From Acidobacteriaceae bacterium dw_441 (GTDB lineage Bacteria > Acidobacteriota > Terriglobia > Terriglobales > Acidobacteriaceae), in assembly GCA_018449715.1 (NCBI GenBank), contig JAAVVA010000004.1:310001-374000 (forward strand): a DNA stretch of 64,000 nucleotides, in the 5' to 3' direction. A program made the position numbers and the translations under genes. Shown piece by piece: positions 39,921-46,764 of this stretch. The stretch's first letter is position 1. Each line of letters starts with the position of its first letter. A model generated the notes under the pieces. It was not told the origin of the DNA, did not search any database, and saw nothing but the letters and a program-made list of their open reading frames with translations.

Positions 39921-40070
39921 TCCGCGAAAGCTGTCAAGGGGCCGCAGAGGCCGAAGGGCCGCAAAACCCTTGTGGGGCGCGGAGAAGAGGCGATTGTGAA
40001 AAGTGCGTATTTGCCCCCTCCGGATTGATATTCTGAAGTAGTATTGGTTCAAATTTCATTTGAAGCAGAA

Positions 40071-40104
40071 AGAGGGAAAGGGCCCCGTAAGGCGCTTTCC
40101 CTCT
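40071..40104 (+). terminator. Hairpin and T-run immediately upstream of the lysozyme gene
   Basis: AGAGGGAAAG (40071-40080) pairs exactly with CTTTCCCTCT (40095-40104) across GGCCCCGTAAGGCG; TTTTGCTTTTT follows. It lies 26 bases before the lysozyme ATG, inside what would be its leader. TTCAAAT-TTC-ATTTGAA (40048-40064) sits just before it. It could end upstream transcription or attenuate the lysozyme gene. Confidence 0.8.
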
Positions 40105-40130
40105 TTTTGCTTTTTCAGGGAGAGAACGGG

Positions 40131-40712
40131 ATGGCGAACTTCAAATACAGCACGAATGGCCTGAACCTGACGAAGCAGGCCGAGGGAGTGAGGCTGACGG
40201 CCTACCAGGACTCGGTGGGGGTGTGGACGATTGGATATGGTCACACCGGCTCCGACGTCAAAAAAGGCCTGACGATCACGGAGGATCAGGCCACGACTCT
40301 GCTTGAGGCGGACGTGGCATGGGCGGTGACCTGCGTGAACAAGTCGGTCAGTGCGGCGATTAACCAGAACCAGTTCGACGCGCTGGTGGACTTTGTGTTC
40401 AACCTGGGGTGCGCGAACTTCGGGCAGTCCACGCTGCTGCGGCTTCTCAATGAGGATCAGTTCGAGGGGGCGTCGGAAGAGTTTCCGAAGTGGAATAAGG
40501 CGAAAAAGAAGGTGCTGCCCGGGCTCACGAAACGGCGCGCCGCCGAACAGGCGCTATTCAATACTCCGGTGAAGGATGGGGCCACAGCCAACCTGATCCA
40601 GGCCCATGCCGCGGGGATGAGGCCCACAGCGGCTTCCGGGAGGCCTCCGAAGAAGGCCGCGAAGAAGGGACGGAAGGCGGGCGCGTCTCCAAAGAAGAAG
40701 TCGGCGTTCTGA
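40131..40712 (+). CDS. Phage-type lysozyme (GH24, T4-lysozyme-like)
   Basis: The enzyme cuts peptidoglycan. The ATG at 40131 gives 193 residues; the frame extends to 40044 but only through hairpin sequence. Catalytic residues match T4 lysozyme spacing: Glu18 (QAEGVRLTAY), Asp27 and Thr33 (TIGYGH), as E11, D20 and T26 of T4. After residue 150 comes a Lys/Ala-rich tail (KKAAKKGRKAG, SPKKKSAF) that could bind nucleic acid or the cell wall. No signal peptide, holin or other phage genes are nearby, so it may be a remnant or a domesticated enzyme. Confidence 0.92.
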   Translation: MANFKYSTNGLNLTKQAEGVRLTAYQDSVGVWTIGYGHTGSDVKKGLTITEDQATTLLEADVAWAVTCVNKSVSAAINQNQFDALVDFVFNLGCANFGQSTLLRLLNEDQFEGASEEFPKWNKAKKKVLPGLTKRRAAEQALFNTPVKDGATANLIQAHAAGMRPTAASGRPPKKAAKKGRKAGASPKKKSAF

Positions 40713-40788: not shown

Positions 40789-40863
40789 AAAGTTCTTTTC
40801 TCTCCCCGTGTTTTGCAGCGCGACTTGCCGCTCGCAGCGTCTCCATGTATCTTGGAAAGCAAG

Positions 40864-40938
40864 ATGATCTACTCGTCCAGCCGAATTATCAGCTTTATTG
40901 ACCGCTACTGGTATCCGGTAGCGGCATCGGCGGAGTAG
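40864..40938 (+). CDS. Candidate trp leader peptide
   Basis: A 24-codon ORF, ATG at 40864 and TAG at 40936-40938. Codons 15-17 are TAC-TGG-TAT, Tyr-Trp-Tyr (in DRYWYPV), with a Phe codon a few residues earlier, so all three aromatic amino acids are sampled. The Tyr and Trp codons (40906-40911) lie within strand 1 of a hairpin, where a stalled ribosome would matter. GGAAAG upstream is a weak ribosome site. It resembles a leader peptide but I have no direct evidence that it is translated. Confidence 0.58.
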   Translation: MIYSSSRIISFIDRYWYPVAASAE

Positions 40939-41036
40939 GGTCTTCTGACGGATTAAGCTCAAGCAGCAAAAGGCTGAGTTCAGACAAAGATCGACACCAC
41001 ACGAGCCGCGACCGACAGGGTTGCGGCTTTTGTTTT
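40902..41036 (+). promoter_or_regulatory. Candidate ribosome-dependent transcription attenuator of trpBA
   Basis: Strand 1 CCGCTACTGG (40902-40911) pairs with strand 2 CCGGTAGCGG (40915-40924). Strand 3 AGCCGCGACC (41004-41013) pairs with strand 4 GGTTGCGGCT (41019-41028), followed by TTTGTTTT (41029-41036): a terminator 28 bases before the trpB ATG. Strand 2 (40917-40925) also pairs with strand 3 (41005-41013) at 8 of 9 positions. This is the classical mutually exclusive 1:2/3:4 versus 2:3 layout. Stalling at Tyr/Trp codons in strand 1 would free strand 2 to break the terminator. Confidence 0.68.
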
Positions 41037-41056: not shown

Positions 41057-42331
41057 ATGGGCGGAGCAACAGGTGGAGTGCCAGTTGGAGTAACAGCCGC
41101 GATGGTGAGTCCAGCCGGGCAGTTGAGGTCGGCCGTGGGACGGTTTGGAGTCTACGGCGGGCGGTACGTGCCCGAGACCCTGATGGCCGCGCTTGAAGAG
41201 CTGGAGGCGGCTTATGCGGAGGCGCAGAAGGACCCGGCCTTCCAGGCGGAGCTGGACGATCTGCTGCACAACTACTGCGGTCGGCCTACGCCGCTCTACT
41301 ATGCGAAGCGGCTGAGCGAGAACCTCGGTGGCGCGAAGATTTACTTCAAGCGCGAAGACCTTCTCCACACCGGAGCGCACAAGATCAACAACGCTCTCGG
41401 GCAGGGGCTGCTGGCGCAGCGCATGGGCAAGAAGCGCATCATCGCCGAGACAGGTGCGGGCCAACACGGCGTTGCCACGGCGACGGTCTGCGCTCTGCTG
41501 GGCATGGAGTGCGTGATCTACATGGGCGAAGAGGACATGCGCCGGCAGGAGCCGAACGTCTACCGGATGCGCCTGCTGGGCGCGGAGGTGCGCGGCGTCT
41601 CGGCGGGGTCGGCGACCCTGAAGGACGCAATCTCCGAGGCGATGCGCGACTGGGTCACGAATGTTCGCTCGACCTTTTATATTCTCGGCTCGGCGCTGGG
41701 GGCGCATCCTTACCCGATGATGGTGCGCGACTTTCACCGCGTCATCAGCAGAGAAGCGAAGAAGCAGATTCTCGAGCAGGAGGGCAAGCTGCCTACGGCG
41801 ATTGTCGCCTGTGTGGGCGGCGGATCGAATGCGATTGGAGCCTTCTACGAGTTCATCGATGACGCCAATGTGCAACTGATCGGTGTCGAGGCCGGTGGCC
41901 GCGGAACCGCGGTGGGAGAGCACGCTGCGCGCTTCATGAAGAACGGCGGCGGAAGCCCCGGAGTGCTGCAGGGAACGTACAGCTACGTGTTGCAGGATGA
42001 GGCGGGGCAGATCGCCCTGACGCACTCGGTGAGCGCGGGGCTGGACTATGCGAGCGTCGGGCCGGAGCACGCAATGCTGCACGACTCGGGCCGCGCGACC
42101 TACACGCTGGCTACCGATGATGAGGCTCTGAAGGCGGTCGTCACGCTGGCGCGGACGGAGGGAATCCTTCCCGCGCTCGAGAGCGCGCACGCGGTAGCCG
42201 AGGCGATCAAGCTGGCTCCGAAGATGGCGAAGACGGATGTGCTGATGGTGAATCTCTCGGGTCGCGGCGATAAGGACATGGGGATTCTGGTGAAGGAGCT
42301 TGACCTGAAGCGTGTGGAGGCGAAGGGATAG
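41057..42331 (+). CDS. trpB: Tryptophan synthase beta subunit
   Basis: TrpB joins indole and serine to form tryptophan with pyridoxal phosphate. The ATG at 41057 (AGCAGGAAG upstream) gives 424 residues; a TTG at 41021 is inside the terminator and is not the start. Lys109 in [13 protein letters not shown] is the PLP lysine; [13 protein letters not shown] and [10 protein letters not shown] (phosphate-binding) are standard. It is TrpB1 type and is followed by trpA with one intervening base. Transcription is probably governed by the upstream leader. Confidence 0.98.
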
Positions 42332-42332
42332 G

Positions 42333-43094
42333 ATGCCGATCGAGTTCAAGAAGAAGCCGGGCCTGGTGGCCTATCTGACCGCTGGCGATCCTGACCTTGC
42401 CACGACACGCGATATCGCGCTGGCCGCGATTGACAACGGCGCCGACGTGATCGAACTGGGCGTGCCGTTCAGCGATCCGCTGGCCGATGGCCCTGTCATT
42501 CAGAGGGCCAGCGAGCGTGCGGTTGCGAAGGGTACGACGCTGACCGATGTACTCGCACTGGCGAAGGAGATTCGCGCGGCGCGTCCGCAGGCCGGGCTGA
42601 TTTTGTTCAGCTATCTGAACCCCGTGCTGCGGCTTGGGATGAAAGACTTCTGCGCTCGTGCGGCAGAGGCGGGAGCCGACGGCGTTCTGTTGACCGACAT
42701 GATCGTCGAGGAGGCCGGGGAATATCTCGAAGCGATGAACGCGAATAAGCTGGCCCCGGTCTTCCTGGCCGCGCCGACCAGCCCGGACGTTCGGCTGAAG
42801 GCGATTGCGGAGGCCTCGCAGGGGTTTGTTTATGCGATCTCTCGCGTGGGAATCACAGGCACGCAGTCCAGCCTGACCGGGGACGCCTCGCAGGTGGTCA
42901 CGCGGCTGCGGCAGTTTACCGAGCTGCCCATTGCGGTGGGCTTCGGCATCTCGAACGCGCAGCACGTCCGCGCCGTGGGAGAGTTCGCCGATGCCGCTGT
43001 GGTCGGCAGCGCGCTGGTGCAGCTGATCGAGAAGACTCCGCGAGGGCAGGAAGCCGAGGCGGTCGGAAGATTCGTGGCGGAGCTGCGGGGATGA
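42333..43094 (+). CDS. trpA: Tryptophan synthase alpha subunit
   Basis: TrpA cleaves indole-3-glycerol phosphate and passes indole to TrpB. The 253-residue TIM-barrel protein starts at 42333, one base after the trpB stop; an upstream frame start at 42312 would overlap trpB. Catalytic Glu41 (ELGVPFSDP) and Asp52 (ADGP) keep the 11-residue spacing of E. coli Glu49/Asp60. VGITGTQ and GFGISNAQH are the phosphate sites. Linked with trpB as one unit. Confidence 0.98.
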   Translation: MPIEFKKKPGLVAYLTAGDPDLATTRDIALAAIDNGADVIELGVPFSDPLADGPVIQRASERAVAKGTTLTDVLALAKEIRAARPQAGLILFSYLNPVLRLGMKDFCARAAEAGADGVLLTDMIVEEAGEYLEAMNANKLAPVFLAAPTSPDVRLKAIAEASQGFVYAISRVGITGTQSSLTGDASQVVTRLRQFTELPIAVGFGISNAQHVRAVGEFADAAVVGSALVQLIEKTPRGQEAEAVGRFVAELRG

Positions 43095-43215: not shown

Positions 43216-43473
43216 ATGGAGATCTCTGACTGGAGGCGAAAGATCGATGAACTGGATGAGCAGATCGTTCGCCTTATCAACCAGCGCGCCGAGGCCGCAA
43301 AGGCCATCGGCCAGCTCAAACAGAAGGACACGTTGCCCGTCTACGAGCCGCAGCGCGAAAAGGTCGTCTTCGATCACGTGCGCGGCGCGAACCAGGGGCC
43401 TCTTTCGGACACCGAGCTGATCCACATCTACGAGCGCATTATCGACGTGATGCGTTCGCTGCAGAAGAAGTAA
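43216..43473 (+). CDS. AroQ-type chorismate mutase
   Basis: An 85-residue all-helical chorismate mutase. The family pattern is WRRKIDELDEQIVRLINQRAEAAKAIGQLK, then PVYEPQREKVVFDHV and ELIHIYERIIDVMRSLQ. It converts chorismate to prephenate, the branch to phenylalanine and tyrosine. The single domain is not fused to a dehydratase or dehydrogenase here. The tyrA gene lies two genes downstream. A 121-base gap separates it from trpA. Confidence 0.94.
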   Translation: MEISDWRRKIDELDEQIVRLINQRAEAAKAIGQLKQKDTLPVYEPQREKVVFDHVRGANQGPLSDTELIHIYERIIDVMRSLQKK

Positions 43474-43554: not shown

Positions 43555-44574
43555 ATGATCGTAGCGATGCAGGACGCGGCAACCGAAGAACAGATACAGG
43601 GAGTCATCGAACGGATGGTGGAGCTTGGCTTCAACGTTCATCGCACCACCGGAGCCGCCCAGACGATACTGGCGGGCGTGGGCAAGCCGGACCACTTCGA
43701 TGTGGCCGAGTTCAAGGTGCTCGAAGGCGTTCACGATGCCTACCGTATCTCGTCGCCCTACAAGCTGGCGGGCCGCAGCTTCCGTCCTGAGGGTACGAAG
43801 ATCACCTTCCCCAACGGCGTGGTCGTCGGCGGCGAAGAGGTGATCGTGATGGCGGGTCCCTGCTCGGTCGAGTCGCGTGGGCAGATTCTCGAGAGCGCGC
43901 AGGCTGTGGCGAAGGCGGGCGGAAAGTTCCTTCGCGGCGGAGCCTTCAAGCCGCGCAGCTCGCCGTACAGCTTCCAGGGCATGGGCATCGAGGGCCTGAA
44001 GCTGATGCGCGAGGTCGCCGACGAGACCGGCCTGCTGGTCATCACCGAGGTCATGGAGATCTCGCAGATCGAGCCGATGCTGCCTTACGTCGACTGCTTC
44101 CAGATCGGAGCGCGCAACATGCAGAACTTCAACCTGCTGCGCGAGCTGGGACACATCCGCAAGCCTTGCCTTATGAAGCGCGGAATTGCCGCTACTATCG
44201 AAGAGGTTCTGCTGAGCGCCGAGTACATTCTTTCGGGCGGCAACTACGACCTGATGCTCTGCGAGCGCGGCATCCGCACCTACGAGACGGCGACGCGCAA
44301 CACGATGGACATCTCCGCGATCCCGGTGCTGAAGAAGCTGACGCACCTTCCGGTGCTGGCCGATCCTTCGCACGGTGTCGGTATCCGTGAGTTTGTTCCG
44401 GCGATGGCGCTGGCTTCGGTAGCGGCGGGTGCGGACGGTCTTCTGATGGAGATGCACCCGAATCCGGAAAAGGCGATGAGCGACGGAGCGCAGAGCATGT
44501 ATCCGGAGCAGCTTGAGCATCTGGTGGCGCAGTTGAAGCAGCTTGCTCCCGTGGTCGGGCGTTCGGTGAAGTAA
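43555..44574 (+). CDS. aroF: 3-deoxy-7-phosphoheptulonate synthase (DAHP synthase, type I-beta)
   Basis: This enzyme catalyses the first step of the shikimate pathway: phosphoenolpyruvate plus erythrose 4-phosphate give DAHP. The 339-residue protein has an N-terminal ferredoxin-like regulatory domain (about 1-75, VHRTTGAAQTILAGVGK) as in the Thermotoga type, so feedback control is expected. The catalytic barrel has AGPCSVES (metal-binding Cys), GGAFKPRSSPYSFQG and LADPSHGVG. It sits between chorismate mutase and tyrA in one direction. Confidence 0.97.
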   Translation: MIVAMQDAATEEQIQGVIERMVELGFNVHRTTGAAQTILAGVGKPDHFDVAEFKVLEGVHDAYRISSPYKLAGRSFRPEGTKITFPNGVVVGGEEVIVMAGPCSVESRGQILESAQAVAKAGGKFLRGGAFKPRSSPYSFQGMGIEGLKLMREVADETGLLVITEVMEISQIEPMLPYVDCFQIGARNMQNFNLLRELGHIRKPCLMKRGIAATIEEVLLSAEYILSGGNYDLMLCERGIRTYETATRNTMDISAIPVLKKLTHLPVLADPSHGVGIREFVPAMALASVAAGADGLLMEMHPNPEKAMSDGAQSMYPEQLEHLVAQLKQLAPVVGRSVK

Positions 44575-44589: not shown

Positions 44590-45450
44590 GTGATAGAGCG
44601 CGTACTCATTGTCGGGACGGGGTTGATCGGGGCATCGGTCGGCCTGTCCCTGCGCGCCTCCGGGTTTTCGGGCCGCATCGATGGCTGGGACCAGAGCACG
44701 CTGGAGGTGAACGCTGCGGTGCAGATGGGTGCGCTGGACGGTGCTGCGGGCAACCAGTGGGGCGCGATGGAGCTGGCACGGCAGGCGGATGTAATTGTGC
44801 TGGCGGTCCCGGTGCTCGCCATCAAGGACTGGATGCAGGGGCTGGCGGAGGTCACGGGGCCGGACCAGCTGATCACTGACGTTGGCAGCACGAAGCTCGA
44901 AATTGTGGAGCTTGCCCGGACGCTTTTCGGAGGCCAGGAGAAGGCGGTTTTTCTCCCCGGTCATCCGATGGCGGGCAAGGAGTCTGGCGGCGCGATGCTG
45001 GCTGAGGCGACGCTCTTCAACAACGCGATGTGGCTGTTCACGCCGGCGTCTGCAGAGTCTTCGGAGCTTGAGAAGGAGTGGCGAAGCTGGGTCGGCTTCT
45101 TCGGCGCGCGCACGATGGACATGGACCCTGCGCGGCACGACGAGATGTGCGCGTGGGTAAGCCATCTTCCGCAGATGCTTTCAACCGCGCTGGCGGCTCT
45201 GCTGGAAGATCGCTTCGGCGATGCGCCTGAGATTGCGGCCATCGGTGGCCGTGCGTTGCGCGAGACGACGCGGCTGGGCGCGAGCCCTTACAGCATGTGG
45301 CGCGATGTTGCGCTGACCAACACCACTCCGATTGCCGATACATTGCTTGCGCTCGAACAGAGACTGGCCCATGTGCGAGAGAACCTGCGCACGCCGGAGC
45401 TGCGCGAGGAGTTTTCGCTGGCCAATAAGTTTCGGGCGCGGCGGCAGTGA
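44590..45450 (+). CDS. tyrA: Prephenate dehydrogenase
   Basis: TyrA makes 4-hydroxyphenylpyruvate from prephenate for tyrosine. The 286-residue protein starts at a GTG (44590) with AAGGAAAGG upstream. The NAD motif is IVGTGLIGASVG (GTGLIG, 9-14), and the active-site His lies in LPGHPMAGKESGG. The C-terminal helical domain includes RALRETTRLG. It begins 15 bases after the DAHP synthase stop, so the two are co-transcribed. Confidence 0.96.
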   Translation: MIERVLIVGTGLIGASVGLSLRASGFSGRIDGWDQSTLEVNAAVQMGALDGAAGNQWGAMELARQADVIVLAVPVLAIKDWMQGLAEVTGPDQLITDVGSTKLEIVELARTLFGGQEKAVFLPGHPMAGKESGGAMLAEATLFNNAMWLFTPASAESSELEKEWRSWVGFFGARTMDMDPARHDEMCAWVSHLPQMLSTALAALLEDRFGDAPEIAAIGGRALRETTRLGASPYSMWRDVALTNTTPIADTLLALEQRLAHVRENLRTPELREEFSLANKFRARRQ

Positions 45451-45528: not shown

Positions 45529-46764
45529 TTGAGTTCGACGGAACAGGCAGCCAGCATCATCAGTCTTGCCGATGTGGTGGCAGCGCGCGAGCGGCTGAAC
45601 GGCGCGATCTACTACACCCCCTGCGCGCATTCGCAGGTGCTTTCGGGCCTGACGGGCCAGCAGGTTTATCTGAAGCTCGAAAACCTGCAGATGACCGGGG
45701 CCTTCAAGGAGCGCGGCGCGTTGAACCGTCTCGCGCTGCTGACGCCCGAGGAGGAGTCCCGCGGCGTGGTCGCGGCGAGCGCGGGAAACCATGCGCAGGG
45801 CGTGGCGTATCACGCGACCAAGCGCGGCATTCGTTCGATCATCGTGATGCCGATTCAGACGCCGCTGGTGAAGGTGACGGCGACGCGCAACTTCGGCGCG
45901 GAGGTTGTGCTGCACGGAGCCAACTACGACGATGCCTACGAAGAAGCCCGCCGCATCTGCACCGCGCAGAACATGACCTTCATCCATCCCTTCGACGATC
46001 CGGCGGTGATGGCGGGGCAGGGAACGATTGCGCTGGAGCTGCTGGAGCAGGTGCCTGATCTTGAGGCCGTGGTGGTTCCGATTGGCGGCGGCGGTCTGAT
46101 CGGCGGCATCGCGTGCGCGATCAAGGAGTCGAACCCGAAGATCAAGGTCATTGGCGCGCAGACCTCGCGGCTGCCTTCGATGGCGGTTGCGGTGGAGCAG
46201 CATCATCCGGTGACGATTCCTCCGGCGACGACGATTGCCGATGGTATCGCTGTGCGGCGAGCGGGCGACGTGACCCTGCCGGTGATCGAGCGGTACGTCG
46301 ATGAGATTGTCACGGTCGATGAGGATGAGATCGCATCGGCGATTCTGACTCTGCTGGAGCGCGAGAAGACGCTGGCCGAGGGCGCGGGAGCGGCGGGACT
46401 GGCGGCTCTGTTGCAGAGGAAGACCTCGCTGAACGGCGAGAAGACGGTGGTGATCGTGGGCGGCGGCAACATCGACGTCACGCTGCTGTCGCGTATCATC
46501 GAGCGCGGTCTGGTGCAGGACGGCCGTATGATCCGACTGCGGATTCATCTGCTGGACAAGCCGGGTGCTCTGGCCGAGCTGACGAAGCTGATCGCGCATC
46601 ATCGCGTGAATATCGTGGACACGCTTTACAATCGCGCTTACTACGGCGTGAACCTTGGCGACACGACCATCGACATCACACTTGAGACGCGCGGGCGCGA
46701 ACAGGTGGAGCAACTGCTGGGCGCGCTCGATGAGGGCGGATACACCTACTCGCGGGTGCTCTAG
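45529..46764 (+). CDS. ilvA: Threonine ammonia-lyase (threonine dehydratase) with C-terminal ACT domain
   Basis: The enzyme deaminates threonine to 2-oxobutyrate for isoleucine synthesis. The 411-residue protein has the PLP lysine Lys60 in TGAFKERGALN, and PIGGGGLIGGIA as the phosphate-binding glycine loop. An ACT-like domain (about 330-411, RLRIHLLDKPGALAELTKLIAHHRVNIVD) suggests feedback control. It is shorter than E. coli IlvA and has a single ACT. The start is TTG at 45529 with AGAGGAGAG upstream. It follows tyrA by 78 bases; whether they share a transcript is unclear. Repeat copy B lies after the stop. Confidence 0.94.
   Translation: MSSTEQAASIISLADVVAARERLNGAIYYTPCAHSQVLSGLTGQQVYLKLENLQMTGAFKERGALNRLALLTPEEESRGVVAASAGNHAQGVAYHATKRGIRSIIVMPIQTPLVKVTATRNFGAEVVLHGANYDDAYEEARRICTAQNMTFIHPFDDPAVMAGQGTIALELLEQVPDLEAVVVPIGGGGLIGGIACAIKESNPKIKVIGAQTSRLPSMAVAVEQHHPVTIPPATTIADGIAVRRAGDVTLPVIERYVDEIVTVDEDEIASAILTLLEREKTLAEGAGAAGLAALLQRKTSLNGEKTVVIVGGGNIDVTLLSRIIERGLVQDGRMIRLRIHLLDKPGALAELTKLIAHHRVNIVDTLYNRAYYGVNLGDTTIDITLETRGREQVEQLLGALDEGGYTYSRVL

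Follow-up and report, generated by a model that had tools for sequence, protein, structure and literature searches.

An attenuator-like leader with Phe, Tyr and Trp codons, predicted to sense aromatic amino acid shortage, ahead of trpBA and other aromatic genes in Acidobacteriaceae

In Acidobacteriaceae bacterium dw_441, a short open reading frame, a hairpin and a predicted intrinsic terminator precede trpB, which raises the question of whether a translating ribosome controls transcription of the genes downstream and, if so, which amino acids it would sense. We studied this leader in a 64,000-nucleotide stretch of contig JAAVVA010000004.1 (the window, whose positions are used throughout; the leader, its promoter and the five genes named next are on the plus strand). 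The first gene under its predicted control is trpB, encoding tryptophan synthase beta (41057 to 42331; PF00291, 2e-41, and family-wide trpB matches), followed by trpA (42312 to 43094; PF00290, 1.8e-81) and the genes for chorismate mutase (CM_2; 43216 to 43473; PF01817, 3.1e-23), DAHP synthase (43555 to 44574; PF00793, 2.3e-76) and prephenate dehydrogenase (tyrA; 44590 to 45450; PF02153, 8.6e-27). All 19 leader-bearing trpB loci examined kept the order trpB, trpA, DAHP synthase, and in most of them tyrA came next. Since the operon covers Trp synthesis as well as the common pathway and the Tyr/Phe branch, mixed aromatic sensing fits it; the original prediction had noted that Phe in the peptide suits the downstream aromatic genes and had thought mixed Tyr/Trp sensing unusual, an oddness that disappears with this gene content. 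A threonine ammonia-lyase-like gene (45529 to 46764) lies close after tyrA, keeps this place in many relatives and may be an operon member. This genome carries its Trp genes at no fewer than three separate sites, and no such leader was found ahead of its trpE (L325, G000:C4:532915) or its trpF, which is preceded by trpC (L326, G000:C9:301390-302025).

The leader peptide open reading frame (uORF; 40864 to 40938) encodes 24 amino acids, MIYSSSRIISFIDRYWYPVAASAE, before its stop. Strand 1 (CCGCTACTGG, 40902 to 40911) and strand 2 (CCGGTAGCGG, 40915 to 40924) are the 5′ and 3′ arms of a 10-bp hairpin, P1b. This is enclosed by an outer helix, P1a, in which 40877 to 40884 pairs with UCGGCGG (40927 to 40933), so that codons 5 to 7 are paired with codons 22 to 24. 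The minimum free energy fold places an intermediate hairpin, TCTGA...TCAGA (40940 to 40994), between strands 2 and 3; TCTGA/TTCAG hairpins akin to it are visible by eye in relatives. Strands 3 and 4 make up the 10-bp predicted terminator hairpin (41004 to 41028; arms AGCCGCGACC, 41004 to 41013, and GGTTGCGGCT, 41019 to 41028), and the U-run TTTGTTTT (41029 to 41036) follows. The uORF, the hairpin, the terminator, the U-run and the trpB ATG at 41057 all lie where the original prediction had put them, and its claim that strand 2 (GGTAGCGGC, 40917 to 40925) can pair with GCCGCGACC (41005 to 41013) at 8 of 9 positions was borne out. The window leader folds better than its dinucleotide shuffles (z = -3.7).

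To find related loci, we searched 150 Acidobacteriaceae genomes for trpB. A clearly homologous leader was present in 12 of the first 30 trpB loci, many of which had trpF directly upstream of trpB and no leader. A covariance model built from those 12 leaders (R1) and run on 398 Acidobacteriaceae genomes matched 125 of them, in 20 of 79 genera, with many E values below 1e-10; leader-bearing relatives include Granulicella and Terriglobus, both Acidobacteriaceae. Given the leaderless trpF-trpB loci and the matches in 20 of 79 genera, the leader is not universal in the family. The matches yielded 130 leaders, whose first gene was trpB in 91, shikimate kinase (aroK) in 27, DAHP synthase in 7, and chorismate mutase with prephenate dehydratase in 2, with 3 not assigned; leaders share ancestry, and all such family counts are of nonindependent events. 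With the same layout in 130 leaders of the family, the arrangement, as read from sequence, is far beyond chance.

A second leader in the window's own genome lies ahead of aroK on another contig, with the peptide MLNCLQTGRFSYWYPSAAGGAFACISENR and the same terminator; it scored weakly against the model (E = 0.45) and was assigned by its terminator, promoter spacing and downstream gene. A phylum-wide draw of 396 genomes gave convincing matches only inside Acidobacteriaceae. Two weak phylum matches (G595 and G509) were dismissed as chance, being inside coding sequence or lacking a leader. One genome from another class of the phylum (G554) has a Phe-only leader, MTTSRRFFPFSFRTSGARVGGV (L183), with a different terminator, ahead of a chorismate mutase/prephenate dehydratase gene; it may be a distant or convergent attenuator. 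The window as a whole was searched against Rfam and the leader was searched with permissive settings; neither search gave a match at gathering thresholds (ylbH, at E = 3.7, was a chance hit), and no Rfam riboswitch, T-box or curated leader family, such as Trp_leader, matched the leader.

We next asked which codons could be sensed. An in-frame ATG precedes an aromatic run in essentially all leaders, and alignment A1 has gaps of 3 nt. In the window the run is F11-I12-D13-R14-Y15-W16 (40894 to 40911), delimited by aromatic enrichment and by the ribosome-position folding described below; the family consensus is F-T-(Y/F)-R-Y-W. Aromatic residues fill 60 to 64% of positions -5 to 0 in trpB, aroK and DAHP synthase leaders (Phe11 of the window is at -5), versus 9 to 18% upstream of -8 and 0.5 to 7% after +1. 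Trp lies within -7 to +1 in 69 of 69 trpB, aroK and DAHP synthase representatives, and where it is off its usual site it reappears close by (FWRFTFRYG, YWRFTYRYR, FWYRYC, RYCW). There is usually a single Trp; two or more tandem Trp codons are not the family pattern. Phe11, Tyr15 and Trp16 are likely the control codons. The original prediction had named Tyr-Trp-Tyr as the sensed codons, and of these Tyr15 and Trp16 stand; the second Tyr (TAT, 40912 to 40914) lies past the predicted switch point, at a position that is unconserved in trpB leaders, where Arg is commoner. The Phe codon at -5 (40894 to 40896 in the window) is TTT in 66 of 67 cases, though the operon prefers TTC by 33 to 10, and this bias could reflect a choice of codon that tunes sensitivity, or a run of U left unpaired. 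Attenuator sensitivity depends on the fraction and synonymous choice of control codons (PMC1183508), which may bear on the strict TTT.

Leaders ahead of pheA departed from this run. We searched 120 genomes for pheA and then scanned, in a way neutral on Trp, for an aromatic-rich uORF plus terminator; this added four leaders, whose peptides begin MHTPRFSFGFFAYRAFTV, MRTVRFTFGFFAYRGYY, MHATRFTSFGYAYRYYF and MNFATLNFSGYFGYFRF. Together with L144 and L185, these bring the chorismate mutase/pheA leaders from the R1 set and later searches to six, in five genera. None of the six has Trp in the control run; one ends in Trp, well beyond the run. The difference from 69 of 69 has a Fisher P value of about 5e-9, computed as 70 versus 6 on leaders that share ancestry. 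Because the codons change with the gene controlled, selection appears to act on the codons and not on RNA structure alone; we regard this swap as our best evidence.

The RNA structure is conserved as well. In 72 representative leaders, P1 (P1b plus P1a) had 64 two-sided cells versus 18.5 expected from shuffles, in an alignment fitted to the model's structure, which favors helices somewhat, and its covariation score exceeded 500 of 500 shuffles and all slid controls. P1b, which contains control codons, had 91% of cells paired and two-sided changes at 5 of 10 pairs, strands 1 and 2 being scored in the same analysis. P1a was looser (70% of cells paired), with two-sided changes at all 7 pairs; covariation in both of its arms was seen in alignment A4. 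By strict scan, 124 of 130 leaders carry the predicted terminator, as GAGCCGCGACC...GGTCGCGGCTTTTG or a closely similar sequence, the others including imperfect or contig-cut copies. In 129 of 130 leaders, GCGG of strand 2 could pair with CCGC in the 5′ arm of the terminator to form the antiterminator core; because this core is invariant, the 2:3 helix has no covariation support of its own, and swapped-partner controls for this pairing gave no clear signal. Of the covariation that the original prediction had proposed to look for, that of 1:2 was found; the 2:3 core is kept without varying. Nonconservation of the codons or of the strand 2/3 pairing, which the prediction had named as the result that would count against it, was looked for and did not occur.

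To locate the predicted switch point, we placed a ribosome on each codon in turn and folded the window transcript, truncated at the end of the terminator loop, in an equilibrium rather than a kinetic model. With a footprint of +15, the antiterminator had a probability of 1.00 for A-site codons F11 to W16 and 0.08 at Y17. It was 0 for every codon from P18 through the stop, and 0.09 in the ribosome-free transcript. The value at Trp16 depended on the footprint (1.00 at +15, 0.52 at +16, 0.02 at +18). With the Trp codon in its A site, a ribosome would overlie the 5′ half of strand 2 as originally drawn, so the usable antiterminator would be GCGGC with its 3′ extension (an A bulge and UCG), that is, GCGGC(A)UCG (40921 to 40929), paired with CGA-GCCGC (CGAGCCGC, strand 3; 41002 to 41009). 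The 5′ half, with its near-invariant GCGG core, takes part in the folds with the ribosome on W16; the 3′ half is supported by the terminator scan, the core pairing and the ribosome-position folding. Across 42 trpB representatives, the antiterminator value was about 0.85 at positions -5 to -1 relative to Trp; it fell to 0.47 at Trp itself and to 0.10 at the next codon, and was 0.09 at the stop. The upstream side was less sharp: ribosomes before F11 gave intermediate to high values (0.6 to 0.97 at I9-S10 in the window). The aroK leader of the same genome folds weakly, with a ribosome-free value of 0.72. In silico, then, a stall at the control codons would free the 2:3 pairing and passage beyond them would block it.

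The position of the promoter bears on how the uORF would be translated. A predicted -35 box, TTGCCG (40825 to 40830), fits the family promoter pattern and is separated by a 17-nt spacer from a predicted -10 box, TATCTT (40848 to 40853), which ends 10 nt ahead of the uORF ATG. The pattern TTGnnn-N16-18-TAnnnT occurs within 50 nt of the uORF ATG in 64 of 71 representatives, versus 1.8% in shuffles, and in 60 of these 64 the -10 box ends 7 to 11 nt upstream of the ATG, a spacing that predicts a transcript start 0 to 5 nt before the ATG. Shine-Dalgarno-like 4-mers were found in 3 of 71 representatives. Judged from these motifs, the uORF is probably leaderless or nearly so. The gene just upstream of the promoter, at 40044 to 40712, encodes a phage-type lysozyme (PF00959) whose tail is lysine-rich.

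Codon conservation, 1:2 covariation, a near-universal terminator and the ribosome-position model strongly support ribosome-mediated attenuation, as originally proposed. We therefore hold with high confidence that the leader is a ribosome-mediated attenuator that senses aromatic shortage through Phe, Tyr and Trp codons in a probably nearly leaderless peptide. In the mechanism that we infer, P1 would hide the antiterminator half GCGGC when no ribosome is present, and the terminator would form. A ribosome stalled with Phe11, Tyr15, Trp16 or a codon between them in its A site would open P1, allowing GCGGC-UCG to pair with CGA-GCCGC of the terminator 5′ arm; termination would then be prevented and transcription would continue into trpB, trpA and the chorismate mutase, DAHP synthase and tyrA genes. 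Once past Trp16, the ribosome would cover GCGGC, or P1 would re-form after release, and transcription would stop. Within this family, homologous elements would also act on aroK, DAHP synthase and pheA, with codons that match the pathway (pheA runs are without Trp).

We consider two other explanations very unlikely. Peptide conservation extends further than single codons (F-x-Y/F-R-Y-W, then V-A-A), as expected if the nascent chain, like TnaC, arrested the ribosome on an aromatic ligand and an RNA switch followed. However, the R-Y-W and V-A-A codons sit in strands 1 and 2, where pairing explains them, Tyr and Phe swap freely at -3, Trp shifts position, and in pheA leaders the codons change with the gene controlled. 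The stop lies 3 to 19 codons past Trp, leaving no fixed release site, and because of this variation of 16 codons we rejected peptide arrest at the stop codon. Pairing is also the strength of an RNA-only switch, in which a protein or metabolite binds, or a partial terminator acts constitutively, and the open reading frame is incidental: base pairing in strand 1 places constraints on the R, Y and W codons, and P1 covaries. Such a switch, to which we give equally little credence, does not account for F at -5 and Y/F at -3, which are mostly unpaired and still aromatic, including TAC/TTC exchange, nor for an ATG at a fixed distance from the promoter or the replacement of Trp only in pheA leaders, and no Rfam riboswitch, T-box or other family was matched.

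A classical attenuator that senses Trp alone, in which structure and history would account for the Phe and Tyr codons, falls within the preferred reading as a special case, and the confidence placed in the two overlaps; we think it improbable but a more serious candidate than either of the above. Trp is the one residue never missing from trpB leaders, and Trp alone is the typical design in E. coli and actinobacteria. Yet there is usually one Trp codon, which sits at the limit of the permissive stretch, and the remainder of that stretch is occupied by F, Y/F and Y; aroK and DAHP synthase leaders share the same run, pheA leaders retain F/Y, and the operon includes Phe and Tyr genes. We favor sensing of all three aromatic amino acids.

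On balance, we lean toward a history in which one ancestral leaderless element was copied ahead of trpBA-chorismate mutase-DAHP synthase-tyrA, aroK, DAHP synthase and pheA, with its codons retuned for each gene; any aromatic shortage would open the common-pathway genes, and pheA would ignore Trp. The family offers natural codon-swap experiments, Trp being lost only ahead of pheA, and the predicted switch point is precisely placed, between Trp16 and the codon that follows; both make the classical model testable beyond Proteobacteria and Actinobacteria. Confirmation would show three amino acids pooled by one leader as an OR gate and attenuation that starts from a leaderless uORF. Attenuators have been predicted in Acidobacteria, nearly all without an assigned function (PMC2965389). 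Our literature search, which reached few subscription papers, did not turn up any account of this kind of element in Acidobacteria.

Like the E. coli trp and pheA attenuators, this leader combines a predicted peptide containing cognate codons with predicted, mutually exclusive 1:2, 2:3 and 3:4 pairings and a predicted intrinsic terminator, and strand 2 mimics strand 4. Unlike them, it has one Trp in a mixed F/Y/W run rather than a Trp pair or a Phe run, its antiterminator half is at the 3′ edge of strand 2, its uORF has no Shine-Dalgarno sequence, and it matches no Rfam leader family and is reused at trpB, aroK, DAHP synthase and pheA. The enterobacterial ilvGMEDA and thr attenuators also have several kinds of control codon in one leader, but these are branched-chain or Thr/Ile codons, not aromatic, in a different sequence and phylum. 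In Actinobacteria, leaderless regulatory uORFs begin at the 5′ end of the transcript or close to it, and they often lack an intrinsic terminator; the leader described here has a predicted terminator and a predicted start site. The actinobacterial trp attenuators of Corynebacterium and Streptomyces are likewise classical and lie ahead of trp genes, including C. diphtheriae trpB2A; their leaders carry double or triple UGG, and no structures were found ahead of Phe or Tyr genes (PMC1262725). What appears to be new here within classical attenuation is the mixture of aromatic codons, the probably leaderless uORF and the reuse of one element across the aromatic pathway of a single family.
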